From the NCBI RefSeq assembly GCF_007559025.1, contig NZ_CP041765.1:3531501-3595500 (forward strand): 64,000 nt of DNA. The letters run 5' to 3'. The translations under genes and the position numbers were made by a program. The stretch comes from Tomitella fengzijianii (GTDB lineage Bacteria > Actinomycetota > Actinomycetes > Mycobacteriales > Mycobacteriaceae). Positions 32,846 through 49,233 of the stretch are shown in pieces. The number at the start of each line of letters is the position of its first letter. The first letter of the stretch is position 1. The notes below the pieces were generated by a model. That model was not told where the DNA came from. It worked only from the letters and a program-made list of their open reading frames with translations, and made no database searches.

Positions 32846-32892
32846 CGTTCCGTCAATCCAGCAGGTTCGCTTTCAACTCAGCAGGTGCGCAG

Positions 32893-33279: not shown

Positions 33280-33292
33280 GATCGATACTCCT

Positions 33293-33829: not shown

Positions 33830-35035
33830 TCACGCCGATTCACCCGGATCGGGTGAGCGCCCCTCGCCCACGGCCGGCGCCGTGCCGGCGATCCCGGGTT
33901 CCTCGCCGAACGCCCGGTACTGCTCCTCCTTCGACGGCCCGCCGGAGATCATCCCCGACAACCAGCGCGTCGACGGATCGATGTCCAGCAGCAACGCCTT
34001 GACGAACAGCGTCAGCGGGATGGCGAGCAGCGCGCCCAACGGGCCCAGCACCCATGACCAGAACACGAGAGACACGAACGTCAACGTCACGGACAGGCCC
34101 ACGGCGTCGCCGACGAACTTCGGCTGGATCACCGACTGCAGGATCAGGTTGATGACGCTGTACACGACGATGACCAGCAGCATCATCTCCGGCCCGCTCT
34201 CGAGCAGCGCCAGCACTGCGGGCGGGACCAGCCCGATGACGAATCCGATGTTGGGAATGTAGTTGGTGATGAACGACAGCAACGCCCACAGGATCGGCAG
34301 CGGAACGCCCATGGCCCACAACGCGAAACCGTCCAGCACCGCGACGATGAGCCCGAACACCGTCGAGACCAGAAGGTAGCTGCGCACCCCGGCCGCGAAG
34401 GACGCCAACCCCTCGATGACGTGCGGGCGCACGCGTGCGGCGTCCCTCATGCGGTCGGGGAAGCCGGCGGCGTCGACGGCCATGAACAGCATCAGCGCCA
34501 GGATGAACACCAGGTGCGAGCCCGCTCCCAGGAGCCCGCGCACCAGGTCGACCACCAGGTGCATAAGCCGTTCCGGGTCGATGGAGGCCACCAGGCCCTG
34601 CACCTGCCCCGCGTCGATGCCCCAGCCGACGAGCAGATCACGCACCCCGGACAACAGGTCCTGCGCCTTGTCCGCGTAGTCGGGCAGGATCGTCACCAGC
34701 TGCTCGATCGAGACCGCCAACGCGAGCACGAGTCCCAGCAGAATGGCGTAGGCGACGACGATCGCGGCCAGCATCGCCAGCCAGCCCGGGGCCCGCCTGG
34801 CGCGCAGCCACACCTGCACCGGGCCCACTGCGATGGTGATCATGAGAGCCAGCGCGGTGGGGGCGAGAACGCTCGCGAACGCCTTCATCCCCGCGACGGC
34901 GACGACGGCCGCGGCCACGCTGAGCAGGACGATCAGCCCCCGCGGCAACGGCCAGCGGGGAGAGCCCGCGTCCCCGTCGACCACGCCCCCGGAGTTCGCA
35001 TCCCCCGCGCCCGCGTCCCCGGCACTCACAGTCAT
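33830..35035 (-). CDS. AI-2E family transporter
   Basis: 401-aa inner membrane protein of the AI-2E (PerM/TqsA) family, members of which export autoinducer-2 or exchange ions. About eight helices are visible. The family's conserved C-terminal block includes ITNYIPNIGFVIGLVPPAVLALL, and QSVIQPKFVGDAVGLSVTLTFVSLVFWSWVLGPLGALLAIPLT. A hydrophilic N-terminus precedes the first helix (GLIVLLSVAAAVVAVAGM). ATG 35035 begins 35 bp after the glycosyltransferase stop, so it probably closes the sulfatase-sqdB-bcsB-GT2 operon. Confidence 0.88.
   Translation of the reverse strand: MTVSAGDAGAGDANSGGVVDGDAGSPRWPLPRGLIVLLSVAAAVVAVAGMKAFASVLAPTALALMITIAVGPVQVWLRARRAPGWLAMLAAIVVAYAILLGLVLALAVSIEQLVTILPDYADKAQDLLSGVRDLLVGWGIDAGQVQGLVASIDPERLMHLVVDLVRGLLGAGSHLVFILALMLFMAVDAAGFPDRMRDAARVRPHVIEGLASFAAGVRSYLLVSTVFGLIVAVLDGFALWAMGVPLPILWALLSFITNYIPNIGFVIGLVPPAVLALLESGPEMMLLVIVVYSVINLILQSVIQPKFVGDAVGLSVTLTFVSLVFWSWVLGPLGALLAIPLTLFVKALLLDIDPSTRWLSGMISGGPSKEEQYRAFGEEPGIAGTAPAVGEGRSPDPGESA
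33840..33856. promoter_or_regulatory. regulon palindrome, site 1
   Basis: TCACCCG-GAT-CGGGTGA, perfect 7-3-7 palindrome. It lies in the last codons of the AI-2E gene and 109 bp (centre) upstream of the DUF6325 start. It shares its form with sites at 42099, 45138, 46321 and 48750. Confidence 0.65.
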
Positions 35036-35070
35036 ACTGTTCACGGTGGCCCACCGGGGCCTGCCGCGGA

Positions 35071-36897
35071 TCATCCGCCGCGGATGAGAACCCGCGGCAG
35101 GCGCGTGCGCGGACGCATCGGCGGGAACACCAGGCTGAGCGCCGCCGCCAGCGTGAAGTAGCTACGCAGCACCCGGAAACACAGGTATGCCGGGACGTAC
35201 CGGAGCGCCCGGGGCGACCAGAGCAGGCAGACGAACACGGTCATGATCAGCGGCATGCCCAGCACCGTGGCCACCACCGGCTGCCACTGCAGCTCCGTGA
35301 ACGTAGCCCGGAACCCGGCGAACGCGATGACCGCGAACAGCAGCAGCGGCGCCAGCATCGCGCGGCGCGCCGCGTTGACCAGCTGGAACGGCAGCACGAA
35401 CGCCCCGGTCATCGACCTGCGGTCCAGCAGCGAGCCCCGGTTGTGCGCGGCGATGTGGTAGATGCTGCGGAACCAGCGGGTGCGCTGCTCGCGCAGGTGC
35501 GCGTAGGTCCGCGGGGTCTCGCTGTAGTACACGGCCTTCGGGTCGGCCACGGTGTAGAACCCGGCGGAGCCGAGCCGGATGCAGATGTCGGTGTCCTCCC
35601 CGTTCATGCCCTGGACCATCCCCCCCACCGCCACGACGGCGCTGCGCCGGTAGATCGCGAACATGCCGGGAACACCGAGCACCCCGCGGTAACCGTCCAG
35701 CGAAACCTGAAAGAACCCGTGCCGCAGGTACACCTCCACCAGGCGCACCTTGTCGATCCACGTCTTCTCCTCCGCGGGCAACGGCATCCCGCCCACCGAC
35801 CCCACGCGCGGATCCGCGAAGTGCGACATAGCGGTGCGGATGCATCCCGGACCGATCACCGTGTCCGCGTCGATGCGGACGACGAACTCCTCGGAGATCC
35901 TGGCGATCCCCAGGTTCAGCGCCACCGCCTTGCCGGGCGTCGGGCACTTCAGCACCTCGCCGGTGATCGTTGCGCAGGCCGCGATGGCGCGCTCGGCGGC
36001 GCCGGTGGTCCCGTCCGTCGAGGCGTTGTCGACGACGTAGAGGCGGACGGTTCCCCTGTAGCTCTCCGCGGCCCGGTCCACGGCGGCGATCGTGTCGGCG
36101 ATGTCGTGCGCCTCGTTGTGCGCGGGCACGAGCACGGCGACGGGCGGCGCGAAGCGGGCCCGGCGTGACCGCCTCACCGCGCGCCACCCGAACAGTGCCG
36201 TCGACGCTGCGAACACCTGCTGGACCAGGAAGACGCCCGGGCCGATGCCGCCGAGCAGGGCCCACTGCCGCAGGTCGACGACGGCGCGGAAGAACACCTC
36301 GACGGCGACGACCGCGGCGATGACGGCCACGACGAGGCAGAGCACGAGGCACACGTACGCGCCTGCCGGCGTGTACGGCGAGGTGGCGCTCGTGTCCCTG
36401 GACGGCAGCCGCGCCTGCCGCAGGATGGTGTGCGGCAGGATCGCCAGGGCGACCAGTGCCGACGCCAACTGCTGGGCGAACGGTGGCAGGCTCACGAGCT
36501 GCACGCTGTGCAACAGCCAGGCGAGCACGTCGAATCCGATGCTGACCGCCGCGAACTTGCCGATCAGCGACGCGCCGATCCACAGGCGCCGCCACCCGTT
36601 GGTGTAGGCGTACGCGGCGTAGGTCACGAAGAACACGACGACGAACAGCCGGGTCGGCACGGCCACGTCGCCCCGGTCCTCGCCGAGGAGGATGAGGTCG
36701 TGCTTGTCGGTGACGCCGGTGTGCACCAGGTAGGTCATCACCAGCATCGCCACGATGCACAGCCCCGCGAAGGTGACGAGGAACCCGTTGGCGGCGCTCG
36801 GCGGGCGGTTGACCGAGATGCCCGCGGGAGCGCTGTCGACCGAGCGGAAGTGGTCGCTGATCGCGGTCGGCGCGGCCCCGCCCGGCCCGGCGGTCAT
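35071..36897 (-). CDS. processive family 2 glycosyltransferase (cellulose/hyaluronan synthase-like)
   Basis: 608-aa membrane synthase. Six or so helices occupy residues 30-230. The GT2 catalytic domain then shows PVAVLVPAHNEAHDI, YVVDNASTDGTT (UDP-sugar Asp), VVRIDADTVIGPG (DxD), GMNGEDTDICIRL (the acid-base Asp region) and LREQRTRWFRS, the QxxRW signature of processive synthases. Three more helices follow. It should polymerise a sugar and extrude the chain. ATG 36897 overlaps the stop of the BcsB-like gene. The sugar substrate is unknown; the adjacent SqdB-like epimerase suggests an unusual nucleotide sugar. Confidence 0.87.
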   Translation of the reverse strand: MTAGPGGAAPTAISDHFRSVDSAPAGISVNRPPSAANGFLVTFAGLCIVAMLVMTYLVHTGVTDKHDLILLGEDRGDVAVPTRLFVVVFFVTYAAYAYTNGWRRLWIGASLIGKFAAVSIGFDVLAWLLHSVQLVSLPPFAQQLASALVALAILPHTILRQARLPSRDTSATSPYTPAGAYVCLVLCLVVAVIAAVVAVEVFFRAVVDLRQWALLGGIGPGVFLVQQVFAASTALFGWRAVRRSRRARFAPPVAVLVPAHNEAHDIADTIAAVDRAAESYRGTVRLYVVDNASTDGTTGAAERAIAACATITGEVLKCPTPGKAVALNLGIARISEEFVVRIDADTVIGPGCIRTAMSHFADPRVGSVGGMPLPAEEKTWIDKVRLVEVYLRHGFFQVSLDGYRGVLGVPGMFAIYRRSAVVAVGGMVQGMNGEDTDICIRLGSAGFYTVADPKAVYYSETPRTYAHLREQRTRWFRSIYHIAAHNRGSLLDRRSMTGAFVLPFQLVNAARRAMLAPLLLFAVIAFAGFRATFTELQWQPVVATVLGMPLIMTVFVCLLWSPRALRYVPAYLCFRVLRSYFTLAAALSLVFPPMRPRTRLPRVLIRGG

Positions 36898-38882
36898 CGC
36901 GGCGGCGCCGCTCGCGGGGCGCCGCCGTCGACCACCGCACCGGCCGCATCCAAGGTGAACCCGCCCCCGGCGGTGACGACGGCCGTGCATTCATCGCCGA
37001 ACCCGGGGGCCGTGTACGCACCCGTCTCCCCGAAAGGCTCGATCCCCAGCCCCCGGGCGCCGGACGCACCGGTGGCGCACTGCACCATCACGCCGCCGGC
37101 GGGCGCCGTCAGGTCCAGCATGGGGCCGTCACCCGCGGTGAGCCGCCCGTCGGAGACACGCGCAGGCGTGTCGATCCCGGGCGCGGAGCCGACGAGGATG
37201 AACGGTTCCCGGGCCGCGGGCGGGGCGCCCCAGAAGAAAGGCGGCGTGTAGTCCGCGGGCACGAACCGGGCGAGGATCGGCACGACGGACGTCAGCATCG
37301 CGTTCATCTCACCCGGGATCGGATTCGTGGCGGACGGAACCACCGCTGCATGCGGATCGTTCACGTAGACGGTGAAACCGGGCGCGAGGGCGCCTGGCAC
37401 CCCGGTGAGTCCCGTGCCGGGATCCGCGCCGAGCGTGAGCGCAGACGGTCCGAGCAGCTGGAACGGGTACGAGGTGACCCGTACGTCGCATCCGCCCAGA
37501 TCCCTGTCGCGCTGCACCGTCAGCACCACCTCGTTGTCCAGCCGCTGGCCCCCTGGCGGCAGCGGGATGTCGATCGGACCCCCGTCCCGCTGCAATCGCC
37601 GGCTGTCGACGAGGTTCCCGTTGACCAGGGTGTCGAGCACCCACACGACGTCGTCAGGCGTGGCGGGCACGCTGAAATCCACGTGCACACCGTCCGGCAG
37701 CCGCCCGCCGGGCAGGTCGGCCGTCGAGTAGCGCACCCGCCAGCTGTGCTCCTCGCGCACCTGCACCACCGCGTCGTCGGCGCCCAGCCCGTACAGCCCC
37801 ACCGCGTCGCCCGACGGTCCCGTGGTCGCTACCGCCCGCGGATCGGTATGCGGCGCGTCGCCGGACACCACAGCCGGGCTCGTAAGGTACTGCGCGAGAA
37901 CATCGCCCCGCGGCTGGACGACCGCGAGCAGCGGCGTGCCGTCGACGGTGCCGACCGTCAGCCCCGCGCCCGCGTCGCGTTCTTCAGCGTCTCCCACGTC
38001 TCCCGCGTCCAGCCCGTACTCGGCGGACAGGGCGCCGGGCGGGCCGATCAGTACGGAGTCCTCGCGATCCGAGTCCGGCACGGCGTCGGCGTACGCGACG
38101 TCGTGGCCGGCCTGGGTCAGTGCAAGTCCCACCTGCGCCGCCGTCGTCCTCCACTCGTCGGAACCGTCCGCCGTCACCAGCGTCATATCGTGGTCCCACG
38201 CGGAGACCGCGTCCCGCACCGTGTGCACCGGCTCGTCCAGCGCGGCCTCGACGAGCGTGCCGCCGTCGAGGTGCACCCGCATCCCGGCCGAGTGGTCGGG
38301 CATGCACACGCCCTCGTGCAGGGCGCCCTGCACGCTCACACGTACCCGCACCGTCCCGTCGGCGGCAAGCGATTCCGGCACCGGCACCACCTCGTCCAGG
38401 TCGTGCTCTCCGGAGGGCAGCTGCGCCTTGTACACCTGGCTGCCGTCGACAGCGACAGTGAGGAACACGGTGCTGGCATCGGCGATCTGCGTCGTCCCCG
38501 ACATCCGGATCTGCGTCTTCTCCCGCCCGGAGTCGACGGGCAGGGAGACGGCGAACGTCGACGACGATGCGTCGTCGGTCAGCCGCACGCCATCCTCGTA
38601 TCCCAGGCCGCCGAGCGTCTTGCTGAAATGCCTGTCGGGCGGGACGTTCAGCGCAGTCGGATCGGCCGGCTCGGTGAACCAGACCGGCCGTGCGATGAGG
38701 AACCCCGCGAGCACGACGCACGCGATGCCGAGCACCCACCACGCCGAGCGCGGCGCCCGGCGCCCCCGCTCGCCCGGGAAATACTCTTCGTCCGACGGCT
38801 TCCCGTTGTCCGAAACCTCGCCGGGCTCACCGGAGCCTTCCGGGTGATCGCCACCCGGCCGTTCGCCACCGTCCTCAGCCAT
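36894..38882 (-). CDS. BcsB-like polysaccharide synthase partner
   Basis: 662 aa from ATG 38882. A single N-terminal membrane helix (WWVLGIACVVLAGFLIARPVW, about residues 50-70) anchors a large exported domain. The first exported part has SLPVDSGREKTQIRMSGTTQ and VFLTVAVDGSQVYKAQL, followed by a long beta-rich region with Cys at VTVQ...GGCDVRVTS. This is the arrangement of BcsB, the partner of BcsA that guides a nascent glucan. No C-terminal helix is obvious, unlike proteobacterial BcsB. It overlaps the epimerase by 8 nt and the GT2 by 4 nt, so all three are coupled. Confidence 0.72.
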   Translation of the reverse strand: MAEDGGERPGGDHPEGSGEPGEVSDNGKPSDEEYFPGERGRRAPRSAWWVLGIACVVLAGFLIARPVWFTEPADPTALNVPPDRHFSKTLGGLGYEDGVRLTDDASSSTFAVSLPVDSGREKTQIRMSGTTQIADASTVFLTVAVDGSQVYKAQLPSGEHDLDEVVPVPESLAADGTVRVRVSVQGALHEGVCMPDHSAGMRVHLDGGTLVEAALDEPVHTVRDAVSAWDHDMTLVTADGSDEWRTTAAQVGLALTQAGHDVAYADAVPDSDREDSVLIGPPGALSAEYGLDAGDVGDAEERDAGAGLTVGTVDGTPLLAVVQPRGDVLAQYLTSPAVVSGDAPHTDPRAVATTGPSGDAVGLYGLGADDAVVQVREEHSWRVRYSTADLPGGRLPDGVHVDFSVPATPDDVVWVLDTLVNGNLVDSRRLQRDGGPIDIPLPPGGQRLDNEVVLTVQRDRDLGGCDVRVTSYPFQLLGPSALTLGADPGTGLTGVPGALAPGFTVYVNDPHAAVVPSATNPIPGEMNAMLTSVVPILARFVPADYTPPFFWGAPPAAREPFILVGSAPGIDTPARVSDGRLTAGDGPMLDLTAPAGGVMVQCATGASGARGLGIEPFGETGAYTAPGFGDECTAVVTAGGGFTLDAAGAVVDGGAPRAAPPR

Positions 38883-40074
38883 GCGCCGCCACCGCACTCA
38901 CCGAGCGTCGCCGACGATTCCAGTACGACGTGCAGGGGATCCGGGCGGGGTCGACCCGGTCGATGTGCTTGTGCGCCACCTCCACCGCGTCCTTCAGCAG
39001 AGCCGTGGAGAGGAGCGTCGGTTCGAGCCCCAGCCCCAGCAGCTGGTCGTTGCGCACCTGCAGCTCGTTCTGGTCCGCCTCCGCACGGGGGTTGTCCACC
39101 AGGTCGATCCCGGCGCCGGTCTCCGCCTGGATCATCCGCGCCAGGTCGATGACCCGGTGCACCTCCGTCATCTGGTTCATCACCCGCACGCGGCCGGACA
39201 CGCGGCCGCCCGACTCCACCGCCAGACGCACGCAGCGGACGGAGTCCCGGATGCTGATGAACGCGCGGGTCTGACCGCCCGTCCCGTGCACGGTCAGCGG
39301 GTGGCCGACGGCCGCCTCCACCACGAACCGGTTGAGCACCGTGCCGTAGTCGCCGTCGTAGTCGAATCTGTTGACCAGGCGCGGGTCCCGCGCAGTCTCC
39401 TCGGTCTGCGTGCCCCACACGATCCCCTGGTGCAGATCGGTGACGCGGACCCCGTCGTTCTGCGCGTAGAACTGGAAGAGCAGCTGGTCGAGGGACTTCG
39501 TCAAGTGGTAGACGCTGCCGGGACGGGTTGGGTACAGCACCTCGGCGCTGTGCACGTCACCGTGCCGGTCGGGGTAGTTGACCGTGAGGTACCCCTCCGG
39601 CAGGTCCAGCGGTATCGAGTCGTACCCGTAGACGCCCATGGTGCCCAAGTGCACCAGGTGCGTGTCCCGCCCGACCTCCGTCATCGCTGCCAGCAGGTTG
39701 TGGGTGGCGTTGATGTTGTTGTCCACGGTGTAGCGCTTATGCCGCGGCGACTTCATCGAGAACGGCGCGGACCGTTGCTCCGCGAAGTGCACGACAGCGT
39801 CCGGACGCAGATCCGCCAGTAGGCCGACAAGGCGCTCGTAGTCGCGCGCGACGTCGAGTTCGACGAATCCGATTCCCTCGCCCGTCACCTCGCGCCACGC
39901 ACGCAGCCTCTCAGTCGTCGACGCGATCGGCGTGAGAGATCGGACGCCCAGCTCCTCGTCGATGCGCCGCCGCACCAGGCTGTCGACGATCGTCACCTCG
40001 TGTCCGTGCGCCGAGAGGTGCAGTGCGCTGGGCCAGCCGCAGAACCCGTCGCCGCCGAGAACCATCACCCGCAT
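38875..40074 (-). CDS. SQD1/SqdB-like NAD-dependent epimerase (UDP-sulfoquinovose synthase family)
   Basis: 399 aa, extended SDR. The N-terminus MRVMVLGGDGFCGWPSALHLSAHGHEV is nearly the SQD1 signature (GGDGYCGW). DSLVRRRIDEELGVRSLTPIA then follows, with VHFAEQRSAPFSM, GTMGVYGYD, GSVYHLTKSLDQLL (Tyr and Lys of the catalytic YxxxK), and TDLHQGIVWG. SQD1/SqdB makes UDP-sulfoquinovose from UDP-glucose and sulfite. Whether this one uses sulfite or is a divergent epimerase is inference. It starts 50 bp after the alkylsulfatase stop behind GGGAGAG. Confidence 0.82.
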   Translation of the reverse strand: MRVMVLGGDGFCGWPSALHLSAHGHEVTIVDSLVRRRIDEELGVRSLTPIASTTERLRAWREVTGEGIGFVELDVARDYERLVGLLADLRPDAVVHFAEQRSAPFSMKSPRHKRYTVDNNINATHNLLAAMTEVGRDTHLVHLGTMGVYGYDSIPLDLPEGYLTVNYPDRHGDVHSAEVLYPTRPGSVYHLTKSLDQLLFQFYAQNDGVRVTDLHQGIVWGTQTEETARDPRLVNRFDYDGDYGTVLNRFVVEAAVGHPLTVHGTGGQTRAFISIRDSVRCVRLAVESGGRVSGRVRVMNQMTEVHRVIDLARMIQAETGAGIDLVDNPRAEADQNELQVRNDQLLGLGLEPTLLSTALLKDAVEVAHKHIDRVDPARIPCTSYWNRRRRSVSAVAAHG

Positions 40075-40124
40075 GTCGCTCTCCCGTCCGAATGCCGCTG
40101 CGGCCGCCGGTACCGTCGTCGGTC

Positions 40125-42023
40125 CTACGGCGTGACGATCGCGAAGTCCGGATCGGGCGAGTCGAGGTAGCCGACGAGCTCGGCCAGCTTCCCTGCGTCG
40201 CCCTCGGCCGTCACGCGCCCGTCCGCGACCATCTGTTCCAGATCCCCGCCGCCGACGACCGCGGCGATCAGGTCGGCCCGGGTCAACGTGAACGCCGCGT
40301 CCGGCGCCGGCAACACCGCGCCCGCCTCGACGTCGAAGTGAACCAGCAGGCCGTTGCGCAGTTCCGTGCGGTGCACCCCGCCGGAGTCGGTCAACCGCCA
40401 GTCGATGGCCACGCGCGCGTCCCATGCCCGCGGGCCGTCGATACGCAGCGCGGCCGCGTCGAAGACCTGCTCCACGCTGAGAGCGCCGGCGATGTCCGGC
40501 GACGCCGTCTGAGTCGGGGTGCCGACGGGCCCGTTGCGCAGCTCATAGGCGCCCATCAGGAAGAAGTTGCGCCACGTGCCGTTCTCGGAGCCGAAGCCGA
40601 GCTGCTCGAGCGTGTCCGCCTGCAGCGCCTTCGCCTCCGCGTTGCCCGGGTCGGCGAAGACGACGTAGTTGAGCACCTGGGCGACCCACCGGAAGTCGCC
40701 CGCTTCGAAGGACTCGCGCGCCTTGGCGATCACCGCGTCGGTCCCGCCCATGAACTCCACGTGCCTCTTGGCCGATTCGACCGGCGGATGCTGCCACAGC
40801 GAGGACGGGTTGCCGTCGAACCAGCCCATGTAGCGCTGATAGATCGCCTTCACATTGTGGCTCACCGACCCGTAGTAGCCGTGGGTGTGCCACGCCTGCT
40901 CGATCGCGGGCGGCAGCACGAGTTCCTCTGCGATTTCCATCCCCGTGGCGCCCTTGTTGAGCGCACGCAGCGTCTGGTCGTGCAGGTAGCCGTAGAGGTC
41001 GCGTTGCAGCGACAGGAACTCGGTGAGCCGCTCGGTGCCCCAGGTGGGCCAATGGTGCGAGGCGAAGACGACGTCGGACCGTCCCGCGAAGGCGTTGATC
41101 GACTCGGTGAGGTACTTCGACCACACGTGCGGGTCGCGGACCAGCGCCCCGCGCAGCGTGAGCAGGTTGTGGAGCGTGTGCGTGGCGTTCTCCGCCATGC
41201 ACAGCGCGCGCCGGGCGGGGAAGTAGAAGTTCATCTCCGACGGCGCCTCGGTGCCCGGCGTCAGCTGGAACTCGATCTCTACGCCGTCGACCGTCTCGGT
41301 CTGCCCGGTGCGGCCGATGTGCACGGTGGGCGGGATCAGCGTCGGCGTGCCCGTGGACGTGGTGGGCCCCAGACCGGCACCGATGCTGCCCACCGGGCCG
41401 CGAGGCAGCGCGGCGCCGTACATGTAGGCCGCCCGGCGCGCCATCGCCGTTCCCGCATAGACGTTCTCCGCCACCGCGTGCTCGACGAAGCCCACCGGCG
41501 CGAGGATCGGACAACGGCCCGCCGCCACGTCCTTGTCCGTCGTGACCCCCTTGACACCGCCGAAGTGGTCGATGTGCGAATGCGTGTAGATGACCCCGGT
41601 GACCGGCCGCTCTCCCCGGTGCCGGCGGTACAGCTCCAGTCCGGCGGCGGCGGTCTCCGCGGAGATCAGCGGGTCGATCACCACCACGCCGGCGTCGCCT
41701 TCGACCAACGTCATGTTCGACAGGTCCAGGCCGCGCACCTGGTAGATGCCGTCGGTGACCTCGTAGAGGCCCTGCATCGCGCACAGCCGGGACTGCCGCC
41801 ACAGGCTCGGGTGCACGGAATCCGGGCACTCTTCCTCGAGGAAGGCGAACCCGTCGCCGTCCCACACCGTCTTCCCCGCCGCATCCGTCACCACGCCGGG
41901 CTCCAGCGCGCCGAGGAACCCGCGCTGCGCATCGGCGAAATCCTGCTCGTCCGTGAAGGGCAGATCCTGCATCGCCTGCCCGTTCTGGGTCTTCACCGTG
42001 GCACTCACATCCGCTTGAGACAC
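40125..42023 (-). CDS. SdsA1-like alkylsulfatase (metallo-beta-lactamase fold)
   Basis: Predicted secondary or primary alkylsulfatase, about 632 aa. The MBL zinc motif is in YTHSHIDHFGGVKG (HxHxDH), with MAENATHTLHNLLTLRGALVRD and FASHHWPTWGTE completing the site. The dimerisation domain has GYYGSVSHNVKAIYQRYMGWFDGNP, a hallmark of SdsA1. The C-terminal SCP2-like domain begins near residue 510. GTG 42023 has a good AAAGGAC site; ATG 42053 would add ten residues. No signal peptide is seen, whereas SdsA1 is secreted. A perfect regulon palindrome is centred 84 bp upstream. Confidence 0.88.
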   Translation of the reverse strand: MSQADVSATVKTQNGQAMQDLPFTDEQDFADAQRGFLGALEPGVVTDAAGKTVWDGDGFAFLEEECPDSVHPSLWRQSRLCAMQGLYEVTDGIYQVRGLDLSNMTLVEGDAGVVVIDPLISAETAAAGLELYRRHRGERPVTGVIYTHSHIDHFGGVKGVTTDKDVAAGRCPILAPVGFVEHAVAENVYAGTAMARRAAYMYGAALPRGPVGSIGAGLGPTTSTGTPTLIPPTVHIGRTGQTETVDGVEIEFQLTPGTEAPSEMNFYFPARRALCMAENATHTLHNLLTLRGALVRDPHVWSKYLTESINAFAGRSDVVFASHHWPTWGTERLTEFLSLQRDLYGYLHDQTLRALNKGATGMEIAEELVLPPAIEQAWHTHGYYGSVSHNVKAIYQRYMGWFDGNPSSLWQHPPVESAKRHVEFMGGTDAVIAKARESFEAGDFRWVAQVLNYVVFADPGNAEAKALQADTLEQLGFGSENGTWRNFFLMGAYELRNGPVGTPTQTASPDIAGALSVEQVFDAAALRIDGPRAWDARVAIDWRLTDSGGVHRTELRNGLLVHFDVEAGAVLPAPDAAFTLTRADLIAAVVGGGDLEQMVADGRVTAEGDAGKLAELVGYLDSPDPDFAIVTP

Positions 42024-42098
42024 TGCGACGTCCTTTCGCCATCTGCCGACCATCCCGGACTGCGCCTACGAGCGTGGATCATGCAGGATGCCGCGACG

Positions 42099-42115
42099 TC
42101 ACCCGGCGCGGGTGA
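42099..42115. promoter_or_regulatory. regulon palindrome, site 2
   Basis: TCACCCG-GCG-CGGGTGA, a perfect 7-3-7 palindrome between the LuxR stop and the alkylsulfatase start, centred 84 bp upstream of GTG 42023. It is identical in half-sites to site 1. Confidence 0.68.
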
Positions 42116-42131
42116 AACCGACCGCCGAGCT

Positions 42132-44762
42132 TTAAGAAAGCAGGCCGATTCCACGCGCCGAGGCGACAGCGTCGCGCCGCGAGGAGACGTCGAGCTTGCG
42201 GTAGATGCTGCGCAGATGCGTCTTCACCGTGTTCACCGAGACGTACAGCGAACCGGCGATCTCCTCGGTGGTCCGCATCGACGGCAGTTCGACGAGCAAC
42301 TCCAGCTCGCGCGGCGTGAGCAGCACGGTGCACCCCGCTCCGGCACGGCCGAGCCTTTCGAGCACCAGCTGCGCGAATCCGTCCCGGTGCCCGTAGCGTC
42401 CGAGCCCCTCCGCGAGCAGCCGCGCCGCCGCGGGGCCCCCGTCTCGGAACGGGCGGACGAGAGTGTCCGGCATTGCCTTATCCAGCGCCTGCGTCATGGC
42501 CTGGTGCGCCCCCGCGGCGTCGCCGTCGTCGGCGGCAAGCGCGGCGGCCAGGACCAGCGCGTCGACGGGCACCCGGCGGGTCAGCCCCGGAGCCCCGTCC
42601 CGCAGCGCCGAGTCGAGCCGTGCGCGCGCCGCGGCATGGCGCCCCCGCTGCAGCTGCATCCCGGTGTGCACCAGGACCGCCTCCATCGTCCCGGGGACGA
42701 GCTGCTCGACGCGCGCGACGCTCTCCGCCGCCCAGTTGAGTTCCCCCACCCGTAAGGCCGTGCGCAGCTGAATCAGAAGCGCGTAACCGGTGGCGCGCAA
42801 AGGCATCCGCGACCAGTCCACCGTGCGCACCACCTCATGCAGCTCCAGCGCCGCCTGGTAGGGACGCTCGGCGCCGTCGAGCTCGATCACGGCCCGGATG
42901 CCGCGGGTCAGCCCCGCCAGCGCCGGAGGCGTGCCCGGGCCGGTGGCACGCACCGCCGCGGCGATCCGCTCCTCCGCCGCGCCGAACTCGCACCGCTGAT
43001 ACGCCACCCATGCGGCCACCACGTGCGCCGTCACCGCCGCCGGGTCGTCCAGAAGTCCCTTGGCGCGCGCGTATTCGAGGGCGGCGCCGCTGCGGCGGTC
43101 CATCGCGACGACGGTGTCCGCGGCCACCGCGGCCATCGCCAACGCCGACAGCGCGGCCAGCGCCACCCGCCCGGCCCCCGCGACCCGCGCCACCGCGTCG
43201 GCCCGCTCGAGCTCGGCCGTCGCCCGGGTCAGGTCGCCGCGGATCAGCAGCAACCACCCCTGGCACAGCAGCCGCTGCGCGTCGATGAGCCCGTGGCCGT
43301 CGGAGCCGGATCCGGGCACCGGCGGCGGAGAGGCGACCTCGAACGCCGCGCCGCTCCACAGCGCGCGCTGCAACCGGATCGAATCCGCGATCGCTCGAAC
43401 CGTGGGGGAGGCGTCGTCCTCCGCGAACCTCTCAAGGGCCACGTCTGCCGCCGTGGCGTCGCCGCAATCCAGTTGCGCGGCCGCCTGTGCCAGCACCGCG
43501 CCGGGCAACACCACCGTCTCCGCCGGCAGCGTGGCGATGAACGCGAGCAGCGCGGGCGCGTGCCCGTCCGCCACCGCGCCGGCACCCTCTCTCGCCAGCA
43601 TGTCCGACAGCCGCGCTGCTGTGAATCCGGCCGTCGCCGCGTGCTCGAGCGCCCGCAGGTGCGCGCCCTCCGCGATGAACCAGTCGACCGCGCGGGCGTG
43701 GATTGCGGCGCGCACCGCATAGGGTTGTCGGACCAGCTCGGCCACAAGGTAACTCCGCATAAGCGGGTGGTATCGGAAACCGGGCTCGGGCCCTTCTTGC
43801 CGGGTGACCATGCAATTGCGGCGGGCGAGCTGGTCGAGCATTCGGCCGGCGTCCGGCTGCCCGCTCAGGGCTTCGGCGCAGCGCACGGAGAAGTGCTCCT
43901 CGTGCGCGGTGGCCAGCAGGACACTCCGCACGTCCTCCGGCAGCGCGGCGAGGATCTCGTCCGTCAGATAGTCTGCGACGGTGCGGGTGTCGCCGGAGAA
44001 CTCCGCGAGCCGAGCGCCGATGTCGTCGCACCCGGCCAGCATCACCGCTGCCATGCGCACGCCCGCCGCCCATCCCCCGGTGCGGGTCATGAGCAGGTCG
44101 AGATCGCCTGATTCGAGCGTCAGCGCATGCTGGGCAAGGATCTCCCGGGCTTCGGCGTGTGTGAAGGCGAGGTCGCCGGAGTCCAGCGCAACCAGGGTGC
44201 CGTCGAGATGCAGGCGGTGCAGGCCGATCGCGGACTGGAATCGCCCGGACAGCACCAGCGTCACCCGCTCCGGCAGGAACCGGCCCGCGTGGACGAGAAG
44301 GTCGAGCGCCGCACGCTCGTGGAGCTGCTGGACGTCGTCGACCACGACGAACAGGTGACCTGCCACGCGGCGCGCGGCTCCGGCGATCGCTGAGACGACA
44401 TCCTCCGGCGCCGACCCGGCGCGGCGCGCGTCCATCCCGCCGAGCACGGCGCACAGTTCGTCGGCGAGGACGTGCGGGTCGTTGTCCGCCGGCACCAGCG
44501 TCAACCACGCCGTGTACTCGGACCGCTCGACAGCACCCGCCGCCCACTGCGCCAGCGCCGCGGTCTTACCCGCGCCCGCGGGCGCCGTCACGCTCACCAC
44601 CGCCGGCCTGCGCGCCGAGTCTCGGGACGCGAGCGCCTCCTCCACCCGGCTGCGGGGGATGAGACCGCAGCCGAACGACGGCGGGCGCGCGCGTGCGGCA
44701 ATCCGTTCCGGCACCGCAGAATCACGTACGGCCTCGACTCCGGGCGAAGTATGCATATCCAC
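42132..44762 (-). CDS. MalT-like (LAL-type) LuxR regulator
   Basis: 876-aa ATP-dependent transcriptional activator. The N-terminal STAND ATPase has Walker A APAGAGKTAALAQWAA near residues 60-67 and Walker B HLFVVVDDVQQLHE near 138. The middle is a long helical repeat region of TPR type. The C-terminal LuxR HTH reads LTPRELELLVELPSMRTTEEIAGSLYVSVNTVKTHLRSIYRKLDV. Such regulators bind an inducer and ATP, oligomerise and activate neighbouring promoters. It is surrounded by five copies of a 7-3-7 palindrome, so these are proposed targets. The start may be ATG 44756 instead of 44762. Confidence 0.9.
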   Translation of the reverse strand: MDMHTSPGVEAVRDSAVPERIAARARPPSFGCGLIPRSRVEEALASRDSARRPAVVSVTAPAGAGKTAALAQWAAGAVERSEYTAWLTLVPADNDPHVLADELCAVLGGMDARRAGSAPEDVVSAIAGAARRVAGHLFVVVDDVQQLHERAALDLLVHAGRFLPERVTLVLSGRFQSAIGLHRLHLDGTLVALDSGDLAFTHAEAREILAQHALTLESGDLDLLMTRTGGWAAGVRMAAVMLAGCDDIGARLAEFSGDTRTVADYLTDEILAALPEDVRSVLLATAHEEHFSVRCAEALSGQPDAGRMLDQLARRNCMVTRQEGPEPGFRYHPLMRSYLVAELVRQPYAVRAAIHARAVDWFIAEGAHLRALEHAATAGFTAARLSDMLAREGAGAVADGHAPALLAFIATLPAETVVLPGAVLAQAAAQLDCGDATAADVALERFAEDDASPTVRAIADSIRLQRALWSGAAFEVASPPPVPGSGSDGHGLIDAQRLLCQGWLLLIRGDLTRATAELERADAVARVAGAGRVALAALSALAMAAVAADTVVAMDRRSGAALEYARAKGLLDDPAAVTAHVVAAWVAYQRCEFGAAEERIAAAVRATGPGTPPALAGLTRGIRAVIELDGAERPYQAALELHEVVRTVDWSRMPLRATGYALLIQLRTALRVGELNWAAESVARVEQLVPGTMEAVLVHTGMQLQRGRHAAARARLDSALRDGAPGLTRRVPVDALVLAAALAADDGDAAGAHQAMTQALDKAMPDTLVRPFRDGGPAAARLLAEGLGRYGHRDGFAQLVLERLGRAGAGCTVLLTPRELELLVELPSMRTTEEIAGSLYVSVNTVKTHLRSIYRKLDVSSRRDAVASARGIGLLS

Positions 44763-44827
44763 CCCCGACGGTGAACGATCGTGCCCAGATCGTTACACGA
44801 ATGTGCCGCGCGCGTCATACGTTCGGA

Positions 44828-45064
44828 TCAAATTCGGGGCCGGCCCGTCGTGCCTGGCGCCACCGACGGCAGCTGCCGGACCTCGATGATCTCGAACGCC
44901 ATCGTGTCCAGGCGCGCCATGATGCTGCGCAGCTGACTCTGGTCGACGATCGTGCCGAAAAGCGACGTCGTACCGCGCGCCCTGGAGTACTCGGCGACGA
45001 GCTCCGGGAAGGCCGATGCTGCTCGGTCCGACATCCGGGCCCGAACGACGAACACGTACTCCAC
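44828..45064 (-). CDS. small conserved hypothetical protein (78 aa)
   Basis: Short soluble protein. From GTG 45064 it reads VEYVFVVRARMSDRAASAFPELVAE, then ARGTTSLFGTIVDQSQLRSIMARLDTMAFEIIEVRQLP. The ferredoxin-like beta-alpha-beta rhythm and this text resemble small proteins common in mycobacterial genomes, of unknown role. AAGAGG sits 8-9 bases before the GTG; ATG 45085 would add seven residues. Regulon site 3 is centred 82 bp upstream. Confidence 0.65.
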   Translation of the reverse strand: MEYVFVVRARMSDRAASAFPELVAEYSRARGTTSLFGTIVDQSQLRSIMARLDTMAFEIIEVRQLPSVAPGTTGRPRI

Positions 45065-45137
45065 GCCGATCACCTCTTGCACCATCGGAAGGTATTCCAC
45101 TGCAATGAAAGAATGCCGGAAGCACGGCGGCGCGCCA

Positions 45138-45154
45138 TCACCCGCACAGGATGA
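45138..45154. promoter_or_regulatory. regulon palindrome, site 3
   Basis: TCACCCG-CAC-AGGATGA, 5 of 7 pairs, same 7-3-7 spacing. It lies between the divergent 78-aa gene and the GAP gene, centred 82 bp and 115 bp from their starts. Confidence 0.5.
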
Positions 45155-45260
45155 TCCCGTTCCGGCGCCGCCCGCCCACACTGCAAGCACGAGCCGGTCC
45201 CGGCACCGGCGACGCAGAGCCGTGACGAATCCACGCGGCGACCGACGGAGGCGGGCAGTC

Positions 45261-45923
45261 ATGGGTGGAACAATCGGCGATCTGCTCCCCTTCGCCATCG
45301 GGATCGCACTCTCACCGGTGCCGATCATCGCGGTCGTACTCATGCTGCTCGCCCCCGACGCGAGGAACACCGGCGTCACCTTCGCGGCGGGATGGTCGGT
45401 GGGCATCGTCGCGGTCGCCGCCATCACCTCCGCGATCTCCGCTGCCGGCGGCGCCTCCGCCACCGATGGCCCGTCCACCGGGTCCGCGGTGGCCCGGCTC
45501 GTGGTGGGACTGCTCCTGCTCGCGCTCGCCGGCAGGCAGTGGCAGAGCCGCTCATCGCAATCCGAGCCGAAATGGCTCGCCTCGATCGACAAGCTGACGC
45601 CGGCGCGGGGCGGCCTCATCGGGTTCGGGCTGGCCGCGGTGAACCCCAAGAACCTGCTCCTGTGTATCGCGGCGGGGATCGCGGTGGGCTCGGCGGGGAT
45701 CGGTCTGGGGCCGAGCATCGTCGCGCTCGCTGTTTTCACCGTGCTCGCCGCAGCATCGGTCGTCGTCCCGGTCCTGGGCTTCCTGCTCGCCGCAGACCGG
45801 CTCCGCAGGCCGCTCGACCGGTTTCGGGAATGGATCCAGGCCAGCAGCGCTCAGGTTACCTTCGCGTTGTTGCTCGTGTTCGGCACCTTGCTCATCGGCA
45901 AGGGCATCGGCGGCCTGACGTAG
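45261..45923 (+). CDS. GAP-family membrane protein
   Basis: 220-aa, six-helix inner membrane protein of the GAP (Sap, sulfolipid-1-addressing protein) family. MGGTIGDLLPFAIGIALSPVPIIAVVLMLLAPDAR is the diagnostic opening, and GLIGFGLAAVNPKNLLLCIAAGIAVG is the second conserved repeat. Mycobacterial relatives help place glycopeptidolipids or sulfolipid-1 at the cell surface. The presence of this family next to a sulfosugar synthase-like gene is suggestive. ATG 45261 starts the conserved region; it is preceded by GGAGGCGGG. Site 3 lies upstream. Confidence 0.85.
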   Translation: MGGTIGDLLPFAIGIALSPVPIIAVVLMLLAPDARNTGVTFAAGWSVGIVAVAAITSAISAAGGASATDGPSTGSAVARLVVGLLLLALAGRQWQSRSSQSEPKWLASIDKLTPARGGLIGFGLAAVNPKNLLLCIAAGIAVGSAGIGLGPSIVALAVFTVLAAASVVVPVLGFLLAADRLRRPLDRFREWIQASSAQVTFALLLVFGTLLIGKGIGGLT

Positions 45924-45964
45924 GACGGGCACCGACAGGCACCCAGGCGCAGCGCCTGCCGTCC

Positions 45965-46213
45965 CTACTCGACCTTCCCTCTGCGTCTCTTGCGCATGGT
46001 CAGGACCCCGGTGAGCCAGCCGACGGCGAACACCAGGATGAGCGTCAACCAGAGCGGGGCGCTGACGGTGACCCCGAAGAAGCTGATCGAGGTGGTGTCG
46101 CGATTCATCAGCACGAAGATGATCGCCAAGATCGCCAGCACAACGGCGATCCACTGCGTGAAGGAGAGCCGGGACAGGAACGAACTCCTGTCGGATACTG
46201 CGCGCTCACTCAT
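45965..46213 (-). CDS. LapA-domain membrane protein
   Basis: 82 aa with two transmembrane helices (WIAVVLAILAIIFVLMN and LWLTLILVFAVGWLTGVLTM) joined by RDTTSISFFGVTVSAP, the LapA domain pattern. It ends in a basic MRKRRRGK tail. Its role in actinobacteria is unknown. It converges with the GAP gene and diverges from the DUF7144 gene, with regulon site 4 between, 116 bp upstream of its ATG. Confidence 0.82.
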   Translation of the reverse strand: MSERAVSDRSSFLSRLSFTQWIAVVLAILAIIFVLMNRDTTSISFFGVTVSAPLWLTLILVFAVGWLTGVLTMRKRRRGKVE

Positions 46214-46320
46214 GACAGGTACCCCGATCGTCCGGCGGAATCGAACCATGCTCAAGCTGCCGTCACTGTAAGCCGGACCGGTCCGTGCACGGCACCCCCG
46301 ACGCCACTTACGCAGCCGAT

Positions 46321-46337
46321 TCACCCGCGACGGATGA
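46321..46337. promoter_or_regulatory. regulon palindrome, site 4
   Basis: TCACCCG-CGA-CGGATGA, 6 of 7 pairs, 7-3-7. It sits midway between the divergent LapA and DUF7144 genes. A TATGAG -10-like box follows at 46364, which would put the site near position -45 for the DUF7144 gene. Confidence 0.6.
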
Positions 46338-46438
46338 GGACCGGGGGTCTGCCGCCACAGCACTATGAGCATGGTGGCCCAGCACACCGATCCGCGGCCA
46401 CTCCCGCATCACCGCACAGCGTCGAAGGGAGTTTCGTC

Positions 46439-46879
46439 ATGACAACCGCTCACACCGCCGAGGCAGGGGGAGGCGGCGTTGCACAAGGGGGCGGAGTCCG
46501 GCAGGGATTCGCCGCGTTCGGCGTGATCGCCGCAGGGATCGTCCTCGTGGCGAACGGCACGCTGCAACTGCTCGAGGGGATCACCGCGATCGCCGCGGAC
46601 GACCTGATCGTCGTCGGCCAGCAGTACACCTACCAGTGGAACACCACCGGGTGGGGATGGGTGCACGTCGTCATCGGCGCGCTGGTCATCATCGGCGGCT
46701 TCGCCCTGATGACGGGCGCCACGTGGGCGCGCATCCTCGCGGTGGTCCTGGCGACGGTCGCGATCATCGCCAACTTCCTGTGGCTGCCCTACTACCCGTG
46801 GTGGTCGCTGATCCTCATCGCGCTCTACCTCTACGTGATCTGGGCCGTGGCCAACTGGACGCCTCGCGAAACCCCCTGA
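46439..46879 (+). CDS. DUF7144-family membrane protein
   Basis: 146 aa with four helices: GFAAFGVIAAGIVLVANGTLQLL, GWVHVVIGALVIIGGFALMTG, ARILAVVLATVAIIANFLWLP and WSLILIALYLYVIWAVANW. A conserved ADDLIVVGQQYTYQWNTTGWGWVH loop sits between helices 1 and 2, typical of this actinobacterial family. Function unknown. It is preceded by GAAGGGAG and by regulon site 4. Confidence 0.82.
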   Translation: MTTAHTAEAGGGGVAQGGGVRQGFAAFGVIAAGIVLVANGTLQLLEGITAIAADDLIVVGQQYTYQWNTTGWGWVHVVIGALVIIGGFALMTGATWARILAVVLATVAIIANFLWLPYYPWWSLILIALYLYVIWAVANWTPRETP

Positions 46880-46924
46880 CCACCCGGACTCTGATCACCC
46901 GGCCTTGTCCCGGTTGACACCGAT

Positions 46925-46958
46925 GCCGCCGGCGCCCCGGTCCCGGGGCGCCGGCGGC
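46925..46958. terminator. bidirectional terminator hairpin
   Basis: GCCGCCGGCGCCCCGG and its exact complement are separated by only TC, giving a perfect 16-bp stem between the convergent DUF7144 and SulP genes. There is no U tract. The location and perfection support a two-way terminator. Confidence 0.75.
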
Positions 46959-46986
46959 CTGCCTTCCCGCGGACCCTCCCGGGCGT

Positions 46987-48684
46987 CTACCGTTCCGGAT
47001 CGGTACGGGGCCACGCCACCGCCTCGTTCACCGTCGTGAAGACCTCGAAGGACCCGCCTCCGACCGCATCGACCACGTCCCGGACCTGCCCGATGTTCCG
47101 GGCGATCCGGAACGCGATCCCGCGCCGGGCCAGGTTTTCATGCACCGTCGTCAGCATCGACATGGCTGTGACATCGACGGTCGGCGTCGACTTCGCGTCG
47201 AGCACCACGATCCGCGTATCGTCACCGCACATCGCAGCGATCGCCTTACGGACCGTGTCGGCGTTGGCGAAGAACAATCCCGATTCGACCCGTGCCACCA
47301 CGATCCTTTCGCTCACGCGGGCCTGCGGGTGACGTTCGACGTCCACCCATTCACCGTCGAGTGCCCCCAGCCGCGCCACGTGCGGGCGCGCCGACCGGTA
47401 CACCAGCAGCGCCATCGACACGACGATCCCCATGACGAGGCCCGGCAGCGCACCGAAGACCAGCACTCCGAACAGCGCCACCAACGCCGCCAGGAAGTCC
47501 GGCCGCGCGGCCACACCGTAGATGCCGCCGAGCCTGCGGGACCACACGCCGTACAGCCGCCGCAGGGCCGCGAAATCGACCAGCTCGACCACCGCCGCGA
47601 TCACCACGGCGGCCAGGGTCGACTCCGGGAGCTTCTCGAACATCCCGGTCAGGAAGAGCAGTGTCAGCACCGTCAGCGCCGCCGCGACCAGGCCGCTCAG
47701 CTGCGTCCGCGCGCCGGCCTCGCCGTTGACCGCCGTCTTCGAAAGACTGCCGTTGACGACCATGCCCGAGCCGAGGCCCGACGCGAGATTCGCCGCGCCG
47801 AGCCCGACGAGTTCGCGGTTGGCGTCCACCTCGTACCCGTCGCGTTCGGCGAAGGTCTTCGCCGCGCCCAGCCCCTGCGCGAACCCGATCAGCAGCACGC
47901 CGAAAGCCGGGCCGGCGAGCTCGTAGAAGTCGCGCCACGCAAGGCCGTCCGGGAGCCCCAGCGTGGGCATGCCCGCGTCGATGTGCCCGACGATCGCGAC
48001 CCCGTGTTCGTCGAGCGAGAGCACGCTGACGGCCACGATCCCCAGCACCACCACCACGAGCGCGCCCGGGACCAACGGCAACCACCGTCGGAGAACCAGC
48101 AGCACCACCAGGCTGCACCCGCCGATCAGCAGCGTCCGCCACTCCGCGTCCCCCAGGCGCGAGAGAATCCCCCATGCTTGCGCGAAGAAGCCGCCGTCGG
48201 ACTTGCCGACCCCCAGCAGCTTCGGCACCTGGCCGGCGATGATCGTCAACGCCAGGCCGACGATGAACCCCTTCAGCACGGGTTCGGAGATGAACGCCGC
48301 GATGAATCCCAGCCGGCACAGGCCCGCGAGCAGCCCGGCGACACCGGTCACGATCGCCAACGCAGCGGTCAACGAGAGGAAACGCCCGCCGTCGGCACCC
48401 GCGACCGGCGCGACGATAGCGGCCGACAGTACGGCCGTGCCGGACATCGGCCCCACCATCAGATGCCGGGAGCTGCCCGCCGCCGCGTAGAGGACCAGCG
48501 CCGGCACGGAGGCGTAGAGGCCCACCACCGGCGCCACGCCCGCGATGGTCGCATAGGCGAGCGCCTCCGGGACGAGCACCGCCCACACAGTCAGGCCCGC
48601 GATCGCATCCGGACGGATCCACGATGCGCGGTAGCCCTGCAGCGAGGCGAATATCCACCATTGTCGAGCCCGTCCGGCGCTCAC
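46987..48684 (-). CDS. SulP-family anion (sulfate) transporter with STAS domain
   Basis: 565-aa inner membrane transporter. The sulfate-transporter signature is near the start (GLTVWAVLVPEALAYATIAGVAPVVGLYASVPALVLYAAAGSSRHLMVGP), followed by a dozen helices and the NRELVGLGAANLASGLGSGMVVNGSLSKTAVN segment. The C-terminal STAS domain (about residues 450-555) includes VVARVESGLFFANADTVRKAI and VLDAKSTPTVDVTAMSML. Likely substrates are sulfate or bicarbonate. GTG 48684; regulon site 5 is centred 74 bp upstream. Sulfate supply would fit the nearby sulfosugar genes. Confidence 0.9.
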   Translation of the reverse strand: MSAGRARQWWIFASLQGYRASWIRPDAIAGLTVWAVLVPEALAYATIAGVAPVVGLYASVPALVLYAAAGSSRHLMVGPMSGTAVLSAAIVAPVAGADGGRFLSLTAALAIVTGVAGLLAGLCRLGFIAAFISEPVLKGFIVGLALTIIAGQVPKLLGVGKSDGGFFAQAWGILSRLGDAEWRTLLIGGCSLVVLLVLRRWLPLVPGALVVVVLGIVAVSVLSLDEHGVAIVGHIDAGMPTLGLPDGLAWRDFYELAGPAFGVLLIGFAQGLGAAKTFAERDGYEVDANRELVGLGAANLASGLGSGMVVNGSLSKTAVNGEAGARTQLSGLVAAALTVLTLLFLTGMFEKLPESTLAAVVIAAVVELVDFAALRRLYGVWSRRLGGIYGVAARPDFLAALVALFGVLVFGALPGLVMGIVVSMALLVYRSARPHVARLGALDGEWVDVERHPQARVSERIVVARVESGLFFANADTVRKAIAAMCGDDTRIVVLDAKSTPTVDVTAMSMLTTVHENLARRGIAFRIARNIGQVRDVVDAVGGGSFEVFTTVNEAVAWPRTDPER

Positions 48685-48749
48685 GCGGCTCCTCCCCGCC
48701 GTCGGTTTCCTGCCTGGGCCGAGCCTGGCACTTCACGCACGCCGACGAT

Positions 48750-48766
48750 TCACCCCGCGGGGGTGA
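48750..48766. promoter_or_regulatory. regulon palindrome, site 5
   Basis: TCACCCC-GCG-GGGGTGA, perfect 7-3-7, between the divergent SulP and PLDc_N/SHOCT genes, centred 74 bp and 92 bp from their starts. GATT precedes it and GGACCG follows, as at site 4. Confidence 0.65.
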
Positions 48767-48849
48767 GGACCGCATCGGATCAGCGCGCGAGGCTGAAGGT
48801 GCCGGACAGACGTGCGGTGTGCGTACCCCTTTGAAGAGGAGTGACTACC

Positions 48850-49233
48850 ATGTCGTCGTCGACATTCCTGGACGTGTTCTGGCTGATCCTCATCAGCGTC
48901 GCCTTCGTCGTCTACCTGATGCTGCTGTTCACGATCTTCGGGGACCTGTTCCGGGACCACGAGACGTCAGGTTGGGTCAAGGCGATCTGGGTGGTCGTCC
49001 TGATCATCTTCCCGCTGATCTCGTCGCTGGTGTACCTGGTGGTCCGCGGCGGCGGGATGGCCGGGCGGTCGCGCGCGGCGGCGGCCAGGATGATGGACGC
49101 GCAGGACGCCTACATCAAGCAGACTGCCGGCACCTCACCGGCGCAGCAGATCTCGGACGCGCAGCAGCTGCTCGACGCGGGATCGATCACCGCCGAGGAG
49201 TTCGCGGCGCTCAAGGCCAAGGCGCTCGCCTGA
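48850..49233 (+). CDS. PLDc_N and SHOCT domain membrane protein
   Basis: 127 aa. Two N-terminal helices (FWLILISVAFVVYLMLLFTIFGDLF and GWVKAIWVVVLIIFPLISSLVYLVV) form a PLDc_N-type membrane hairpin. The C-terminal SHOCT motif is DAQQLLDAGSITAEEFAALKAKALA. Such proteins are common in actinobacterial stress clusters. AAGAGGAG precedes ATG 48850; GTG 48841 is a possible earlier start. Confidence 0.87.
   Translation: MSSSTFLDVFWLILISVAFVVYLMLLFTIFGDLFRDHETSGWVKAIWVVVLIIFPLISSLVYLVVRGGGMAGRSRAAAARMMDAQDAYIKQTAGTSPAQQISDAQQLLDAGSITAEEFAALKAKALA

Follow-up and report, generated by a model that had tools for sequence, protein, structure and literature searches.

A 17-bp palindrome at predicted envelope-gene promoters accompanies a MalT-type LAL regulator in Tomitella fengzijianii and many relatives

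A palindrome repeated in front of neighbouring genes raises the question of which protein reads it, and to what effect. We take up this question for a 64,000-nucleotide stretch of the Tomitella fengzijianii genome (contig NZ_CP041765.1, positions 3,531,501 to 3,595,500; hereafter the window), where a pattern search finds six exact TCAYCC-N5-GGRTGA sites, starting at 33840, 35071, 42099, 45138, 46321 and 48750, around the gene for a LuxR-class protein of the LAL family. Our answer, to which we give a probability of about 0.88, is that the locus is a local copy of an actinobacterial regulon in which this MalT-type LAL protein reads the 17-bp palindromes and activates the promoters of envelope genes.

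A first-pass annotation, made from the letters of the window, had reported five palindromes, at 33840, 42099, 45138, 46321 and 48750. Their sequences are present at these positions with the pairing described (7/7 at 33840, 42099 and 48750, 6/7 at 46321 and 5/7 at 45138). The five are real, but a sixth, at 35071-35087, had been overlooked; it is a perfect palindrome and an exact match to the pattern. The 3-bp centre, described as invariant, is constant in length but varies in sequence (GAT, GCG, CAC, CGA and CGC). The six sites are listed here with any −10-like element at the spacing discussed below; p78 denotes a protein of 78 amino acids.

33840..33856: palindrome TCACCCGGATCGGGTGA, upstream of the DUF6325 gene (minus strand), within the 3′ end of the AI-2E gene and not intergenic; no −10 at +32/33 on either side
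35071..35087: palindrome TCATCCGCCGCGGATGA, upstream of the AI-2E gene (minus strand); −10-like CACCGT at 35043-35048
42099..42115: palindrome TCACCCGGCGCGGGTGA, between the LAL stop codon and the alkylsulfatase gene; −10-like CACGCT at 42071-42076 towards alkylsulfatase
45138..45154: palindrome TCACCCGCACAGGATGA, between p78 and SfLAP; −10-like CATTCT at 45110-45115 (minus strand) and CACACT at 45177-45182 (plus strand)
46321..46337: palindrome TCACCCGCGACGGATGA, between LapA and DUF7144; −10-like CACTAT at 46361-46366, on the DUF7144 side only
48750..48766: palindrome TCACCCCGCGGGGGTGA, between SulP and PLDc_N/SHOCT; −10-like CAGGCT at 48722-48727 (minus strand) and GAGGCT at 48789-48794 (plus strand)

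For the eight genes that the first-pass annotation named, the gap from site edge to start codon is 65-106 bp, which agrees with its 74-116 bp if these were measured from the site centre. Start codons were picked by script, and for two loci (L203 and L209) the choice hid an exact p78 site. In the case of LapA the gap to the 46321 site is 71 bp with an alternative start and 107 bp from the ATG at 46213, and the AI-2E start lies 35 bp from the edge of the sixth site. The suggestion that one site could serve two divergent promoters fits 45138 and 48750, which have a −10 on both sides, but not for 46321, which has one only towards DUF7144.

Searched in the window alone with two mismatches allowed, the motif gives nine matches against a shuffle mean of 4.49, and nine were reached in 6 of 100 shuffles, which is mildly unusual and leaves the role of chance ambiguous. 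The exact genome-wide count settles the matter. Across the host genome (4,013,250 bases in two contigs) TCAYCC-N5-GGRTGA occurs seven times and its reversed control 0 times, and six of the seven sites lie inside 14.9 kb, with an upper bound of 3e-11 for clustering by chance. The motif is thus neither frequent nor scattered in this genome.

Across the family, the motif tracks the LAL gene. We compared 61 genomes from the same family, 23 of them LAL-positive and 38 LAL-negative. A genome was counted as positive when one match, or two collinear ones, spanned about residues 60 to 870 of the window LAL; this rule was fixed after the site counts were known, and under it G074, with two partial matches in a 714-amino-acid frame, was called negative. 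The mean number of sites is 5.43 in LAL-positive and 0.95 in LAL-negative genomes (Mann–Whitney p 2.5e-8, with no phylogenetic correction), and at least four sites are found in 18 of the 23 genomes with a full-length LAL versus 0 of the 38 without one. In genera that include both kinds of genome, the counts of LAL-positive versus LAL-negative members are clearly separated in g1 (7 and 2 versus 0 and 0), g4 (7 and 5 versus 0), g9 (7 versus 0) and g84 (5 and 8 versus 2), and weakly in g79 (4 versus 1 and 3).

In a second test, loci were picked by the LAL protein and not by the motif, using as query an alignment of 23 LAL proteins that includes three members found via motif clusters (L127, L044 and L041). 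The 79 loci obtained (1.56 Mb in total) come from the best 80 of 538 relatives and are in this sense a sample; they include Rhodococcus, Nocardia, Lentzea, Amycolatopsis, Jiangella, Streptomyces, Kitasatospora, Kribbella, Geodermatophilus, Nitriliruptoraceae and one Clostridium, and were sorted by title into 26 taxa, mostly genera. Here the 5-bp spacer is strict: with k = 5, TCAYCC-Nk-GGRTGA has 96 sites spread over 55 loci, and with any other k from 0 to 14 only 0-2; the reversed pattern is absent throughout that range of k. When the half-site was permuted (119 permutations), the three variants admitting TCACCC scored 96, 77 and 69, and the next scored 12. Site density peaks within a few kb of LAL, and 17 of the 26 taxa include one or more loci with an exact site at most 5 kb from it. 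The local regulon and LAL as its proposed binder withstand the computational checks suggested in the first-pass annotation: the motif is conserved near LAL homologues at these loci and follows the LAL gene across the 61 genomes.

A form with one base less in the spacer, TCAYCC-N4-GGRTGA, is present at about five copies per genome in 60 of the 61 family genomes, LAL or not (p 0.24 for a difference by LAL presence), with a near-zero reversed control. It does not follow LAL, and many of its copies resemble tetraloop hairpins, for which reason it was set aside.

What the sites do is suggested by their distance to a −10 core. The window and all the loci together yield 198 unique sites. With the genes that point away from them, these sites give 195 oriented, de-duplicated site-gene pairs when only families of at least four are kept; three gene clusters resembling wrong-frame open reading frames were excluded before the −10 count. 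Measured from the site centre, A-N3-T is found at +32 in 84 and at +33 in 57 of the 195 pairs, against a mean of 4.9 at other offsets. At least one side carries it at precisely one of these two offsets in 159 of the 198 sites (one side in 141, both in 18), and neither side does in 39. For the named target families without LAL, the −10 is found in 132 of 164 pairs (190 less 26 for LAL). Between site and −10, information exceeds 0.12 bits only at +9 to +11, and these positions do not spell a consensus −35, none of which is seen in the interval. If the A is taken as position −11, the site centre lies at −43 or −44, and an operator centred near −42 to −44 is the geometry of a class II activator. 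On this spacing, the sites are predicted to be promoter elements placed as for such an activator.

Combining site and −10 sharpens the picture in the host genome, where the exact composite occurs in seven directions, all at this locus (AI-2E, alkylsulfatase, p78, SfLAP, SulP, PLDc_N/SHOCT and DUF7144). With one mismatch allowed there are three more, two at the locus and one at the seventh genomic site; the reversed controls gave 1 and 1. That seventh copy (C1:312413; L001 1501-1517) stands where a glycosyltransferase-like gene has its 3′ end, and the fragment after it, inspected by eye, resembles the end of a DUF2254 gene. It has no complete A-N3-T at regulon spacing and was not counted as a regulon member. 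In a wider sample at the level of the order, one or more sites occur in 208 of 298 genomes. Isolated single sites showed no regulon gene nearby in 13 of 20 fetched regions (L045-L057), weak dehydrogenase matches excepted, and first-hit loci have a −10 in 11 of 86 directions, some places being counted twice. The isolated single sites of this sample are, in part, background.

The regulator of the window is a LAL protein, composed of a STAND NTPase, MalT domain III-like repeats and a GerE helix-turn-helix (HTH) domain.

42132..44762, minus strand: LAL (MalT-type STAND) regulator, 876 amino acids, C-terminal GerE HTH; proposed binder

Its GerE HTH scores 44.5 bits with PF00196 (cut-off 23.5), and its best sequence match in the PDB is MalT 8bob, over residues 41-418 (E 1.5e-23). 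Fold matches of the structural model (predicted local distance difference test, pLDDT, 88) include MalT 8bob and MalT domain III 1hz4, the latter with E 1e-5 and a template-modelling score by target of 0.66. The Pfam TPR_MalT model gives 23.7 bits, below its cut-off of 45, and Pfam NTPase models also match below their cut-offs; Walker residues G63, G65, K66 and D142 are invariant in 24 sequences, and T67 is kept in at least 90%. The proposal that this LAL-type LuxR protein is the binder is supported by co-occurrence and adjacency, from which we infer direct binding.

Autoregulation of LAL was also considered and rejected as a general rule, as a −10 points towards LAL in only 2 of 26 site-LAL pairs. 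Sites upstream of LAL usually have their −10 on the other side, towards DUF7144, p78, SHOCT, LapA or DUF308. In the window, the interval from the p78 stop codon to the start of LAL contains an inverted repeat AACGATC-N7-GATCGTT (44771-44791, minus strand), possibly an attenuator or a second operator. In one family genome (G317 C1:1126890-1129488; L121 8888-11528) LAL is split into two overlapping frames, by a frameshift or a sequencing error, and the genome keeps ten exact sites.

The gene just upstream of LAL encodes the second most widespread neighbour family.

44828..45064, minus strand: p78, 78 amino acids, predicted ferredoxin-like fold (family profile; model pLDDT 84)

A profile search finds p78 in 38 of the 79 LAL loci (39 genes) and in 18 of the 61 family genomes, all 18 of them LAL-positive (Fisher p 2.6e-11); the LAL-positive genomes in which the profile has no match are G311, G322, G081, G326 and G340. 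In most of the 18, no more than a few hundred bases separate p78 from a LAL gene. In G315 a second p78 adjoins a second LAL, and in G160 the two genes are on separate contigs, with LAL at a contig end. An upstream site with at most two mismatches is found for 35 of the 39 p78 genes, and 34 of the 35 have a −10 at +32 or +33, although the choice of site gave those with a −10 an advantage of half a mismatch. Some p78 genes (L152-L199) have asymmetric half-sites, TCACCA in Rhodococcus relatives and TCACCT in Streptomyces and others, with the −10 still at +32; these may mark weaker, graded promoters.

In the window p78 precedes LAL (start 44762) on the same strand at a distance of 65 bp, so that transcription from the p78 promoter may also produce LAL, and a p78-LAL operon with positive feedback is likely in this genome. 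The same order is seen in G341, G317 and G289 and in the Nocardia loci L202, L203, L204, L206 and L209; in Rhodococcus loci p78 mostly comes after LAL. As for the protein itself, searches gave no match for p78 in Pfam at E ≤ 0.01, among PDB sequences below E 0.04 or with Foldseek at E ≤ 0.001. Its model is beta-alpha-beta-beta-alpha-beta, and the best rows of a fold comparison are generic ferredoxin-like ones, a mixed and tied set at Z 6-8 (ribosomal S6, RAM/FFRP, ACT, CutA and others, with stand-alone RAM and ACT modules at about 7). Our guess is that p78 is a ligand-binding or inhibitory partner of LAL. A more specific proposal, which we advance tentatively and at somewhat less than even odds, is that the two form a signalling module: p78, RAM/ACT-like and itself under control of the palindrome, would bind the STAND activator or its ligand, provide feedback in the manner of MalT inhibitors and set the output of an envelope-stress regulon.

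The other genes next to the six sites are listed below.

40125..42023, minus strand: alkylsulfatase, 632 amino acids; predicted target (Alkyl_sulf_dimr, E 9e-64)
45261..45923, plus strand: SfLAP/GAP-family membrane protein; predicted target (PF11139, E 1.9e-46)
45965..46213, minus strand: LapA-like protein; possible target, with no −10 at the spacing (LapA_dom 23 bits, below cut-off 28)
46439..46879, plus strand: DUF7144 membrane protein; predicted target (PF23636, E 2.6e-39)
46987..48684, minus strand: SulP-family anion transporter with STAS domain; predicted target (PF00916, E 1.8e-94)
48850..49233, plus strand: PLDc_N/SHOCT protein; predicted target (PLDc_N 27.5 bits, cut-off 23.3; SHOCT 24.7 bits, below 27)
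33830..35035, minus strand: AI-2E family transporter; predicted target of the sixth site (PF01594, E 1.8e-49 on the longer reading frame), with an inferred start codon and almost no leader
33293..33739, minus strand: DUF6325 protein; presumed target of the 33840 site (PF19850, E 4.3e-14)
31550..33330, minus strand: SHOCT protein (32893-33330, start uncertain) and DUF2254 protein (31550-32845), after DUF6325

By adjacency, the SHOCT and DUF2254 genes are possible operon members with DUF6325. Across the site-gene pairs, DUF6325 is the largest family (30), followed by DUF7144 (28), p78 (15), alkylsulfatase (14), PLDc_N/SHOCT (11), AI-2E, SfLAP, SulP and DUF308 (9 each), DUF6069 (8), arylsulfatase (6) and LapA, GH15 and DUF2252 (4 each). 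The recurrent targets are an envelope, anion-transport and sulfatase set.

Taken as a mechanism, LAL would bind TCAYCC(G)-N3-(C)GGRTGA, very probably as a dimer of GerE HTH domains, with the site centre about 43-44 bp upstream of the transcription start, and would recruit RNA polymerase to promoters with a −10 core (A-N3-T) but lacking a consensus −35. Its targets would be small membrane or envelope proteins, anion transporters, sulfatases and p78, and in most of the relatives examined the site would serve p78 or another neighbour and not LAL. The inducing signal can be guessed from these targets: envelope stress, acid or anion stress, or stress from anionic surfactants.

Several observations weigh against this account. 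In the window no −10 stands at regulon spacing in the DUF6325 (33840) and LapA (46321, minus strand) directions, which makes two of nine gene directions across the six sites, though in the whole set 24 of 30 DUF6325 pairs and three of four LapA pairs have one. Site counts show no LAL contrast in the genera g5 (1 versus 1 and 3) and g90 (1 versus 1). One genome with LAL (G334) has zero exact sites and two (G081 and G311) have one each, while LAL-negative genomes have up to three. The genome counts are uncorrected for phylogeny, and the two tests share some genomes, Aldersonia kunmingensis and Rhodococcus wratislaviensis being examples. Finally, an exact site is missing from 24 of the 79 LAL loci. 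Close to one end of LAL, 19 of the 24 carry a site with a single mismatch; the remaining five (L200, L211, L212, L219 and L228, the Clostridium locus among them) have none within the ranges covered, and in three of these five one side has hardly any flank.

Could the motif have arisen by chance or as RNA hairpins? That some palindromes have another origin is indicated by the spacer-4 form, a perfect tetraloop stem that is widespread regardless of LAL. Only spacer 5 gathers around LAL, however, the clustering bound is as given above, and the sites lie upstream of the −10 and so would not be transcribed from that promoter; we find this explanation scarcely credible. A part in the promoter of an alternative sigma factor would account for the fixed distance between motif and −10 core, but the gap from half-site to −10 is about 22 bp, too long for a −35/−10 pair, for which 16-19 bp is the norm, and a symmetric 17-bp site is unexpected for a sigma factor. 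This, too, is highly improbable.

The remaining alternatives concern the identity and sign of the regulator. LAL might bind the sites and repress, or act both ways, given that the 3′ half-site extends to around −35, a position at which polymerase could also be blocked by a repressor. Promoters with no consensus −35 between site and −10 should, however, be weak unaided, and the LAL proteins typified by MalT are activators (PMC3282765); repression is, in our judgement, very unlikely, and we infer activation. It is also very unlikely, by our assessment, that the sites are read by a different protein of the LuxR/NarL type, for example a response regulator like BldM, with LAL no more than a co-inherited neighbour. 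The BldM homodimer does bind the same half-site (PMC4125116), and the host has 17 GerE-domain places, which were not identified individually and among which BldM was not searched for. Of these 17, however, only the one at LAL has a site within about 1.5 kb; the BldM spacing of 4 is missing from the 79 LAL loci and is independent of LAL; and among the 40 most widespread neighbour families of those loci, inspected by eye, no other regulator was seen in more than three taxa (a LysR-type protein).

LAL regulators are common in actinobacteria, yet the operator is defined for few of them. In the present case the sequence reveals operator and spacer, promoter geometry, regulator and a recurrent set of genes, and allows their prediction in Rhodococcus, Nocardia, Lentzea, Jiangella, Streptomyces and Nitriliruptor relatives. 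The DUF6325, DUF7144, DUF6069, SHOCT and p78 families thereby gain a common regulatory context. The comparison with BldM also raises the question of how two LuxR-class regulators with the same half-site are told apart by one base of spacing.

Among known systems, MalT of E. coli (8bob, 1hz4) shares with the LAL protein the STAND NTPase, the domain III-like repeats and the C-terminal GerE HTH. MalT responds to maltotriose, and its boxes are of the asymmetric GGGGAKGAGG type, whereas the LAL-associated site is palindromic. In placement the site is like the lux box, a palindrome near −42.5 that overlaps the −35 region and from which LuxR activates in class II fashion; the lux half-site differs, and LuxR has an acyl-homoserine-lactone receptor domain. 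SCO0877 and SCO7173 of Streptomyces coelicolor belong to the LAL family, with a Walker A motif, a LuxR-like HTH and many genes affected, but they act in phosphate starvation and antibiotic control, and the main text of PMC3282765, when searched, is without the terms 'palindrom', 'consensus' and 'GGGTGA'. Among the matches listed from open-access full text, a scope outside which most subscription journals lie, no description of this LAL regulon was found, and the available portions of PMC6767563, PMC3282765 and PMC6921075 hold no description of this site. The earlier statement that no described regulon has this site is corrected by a very similar operator, the nearest described one found, that of BldM Group I in Streptomyces, 5′-TCACcCgnncGgGTGA-3′, which is bound by an orphan response regulator as a homodimer (PMC4125116). 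Shared are the half-site TCACCC(G), a palindrome suited to a homodimer of the LuxR/NarL class, and, for LAL as proposed here, activation. The BldM operator has 16 bp and a spacer of 4 where the LAL-associated site has 17 bp and a spacer of 5, and the BldM-type form (TCACcC-N4-GgGTGA) gives 0 sites in the 79 LAL loci versus 96 for spacer 5; its absence there indicates that the LAL-associated site is not the BldM operator. The regulators differ as well: BldM governs development, whereas here a MalT-type STAND protein is paired with envelope and anion-transport targets.

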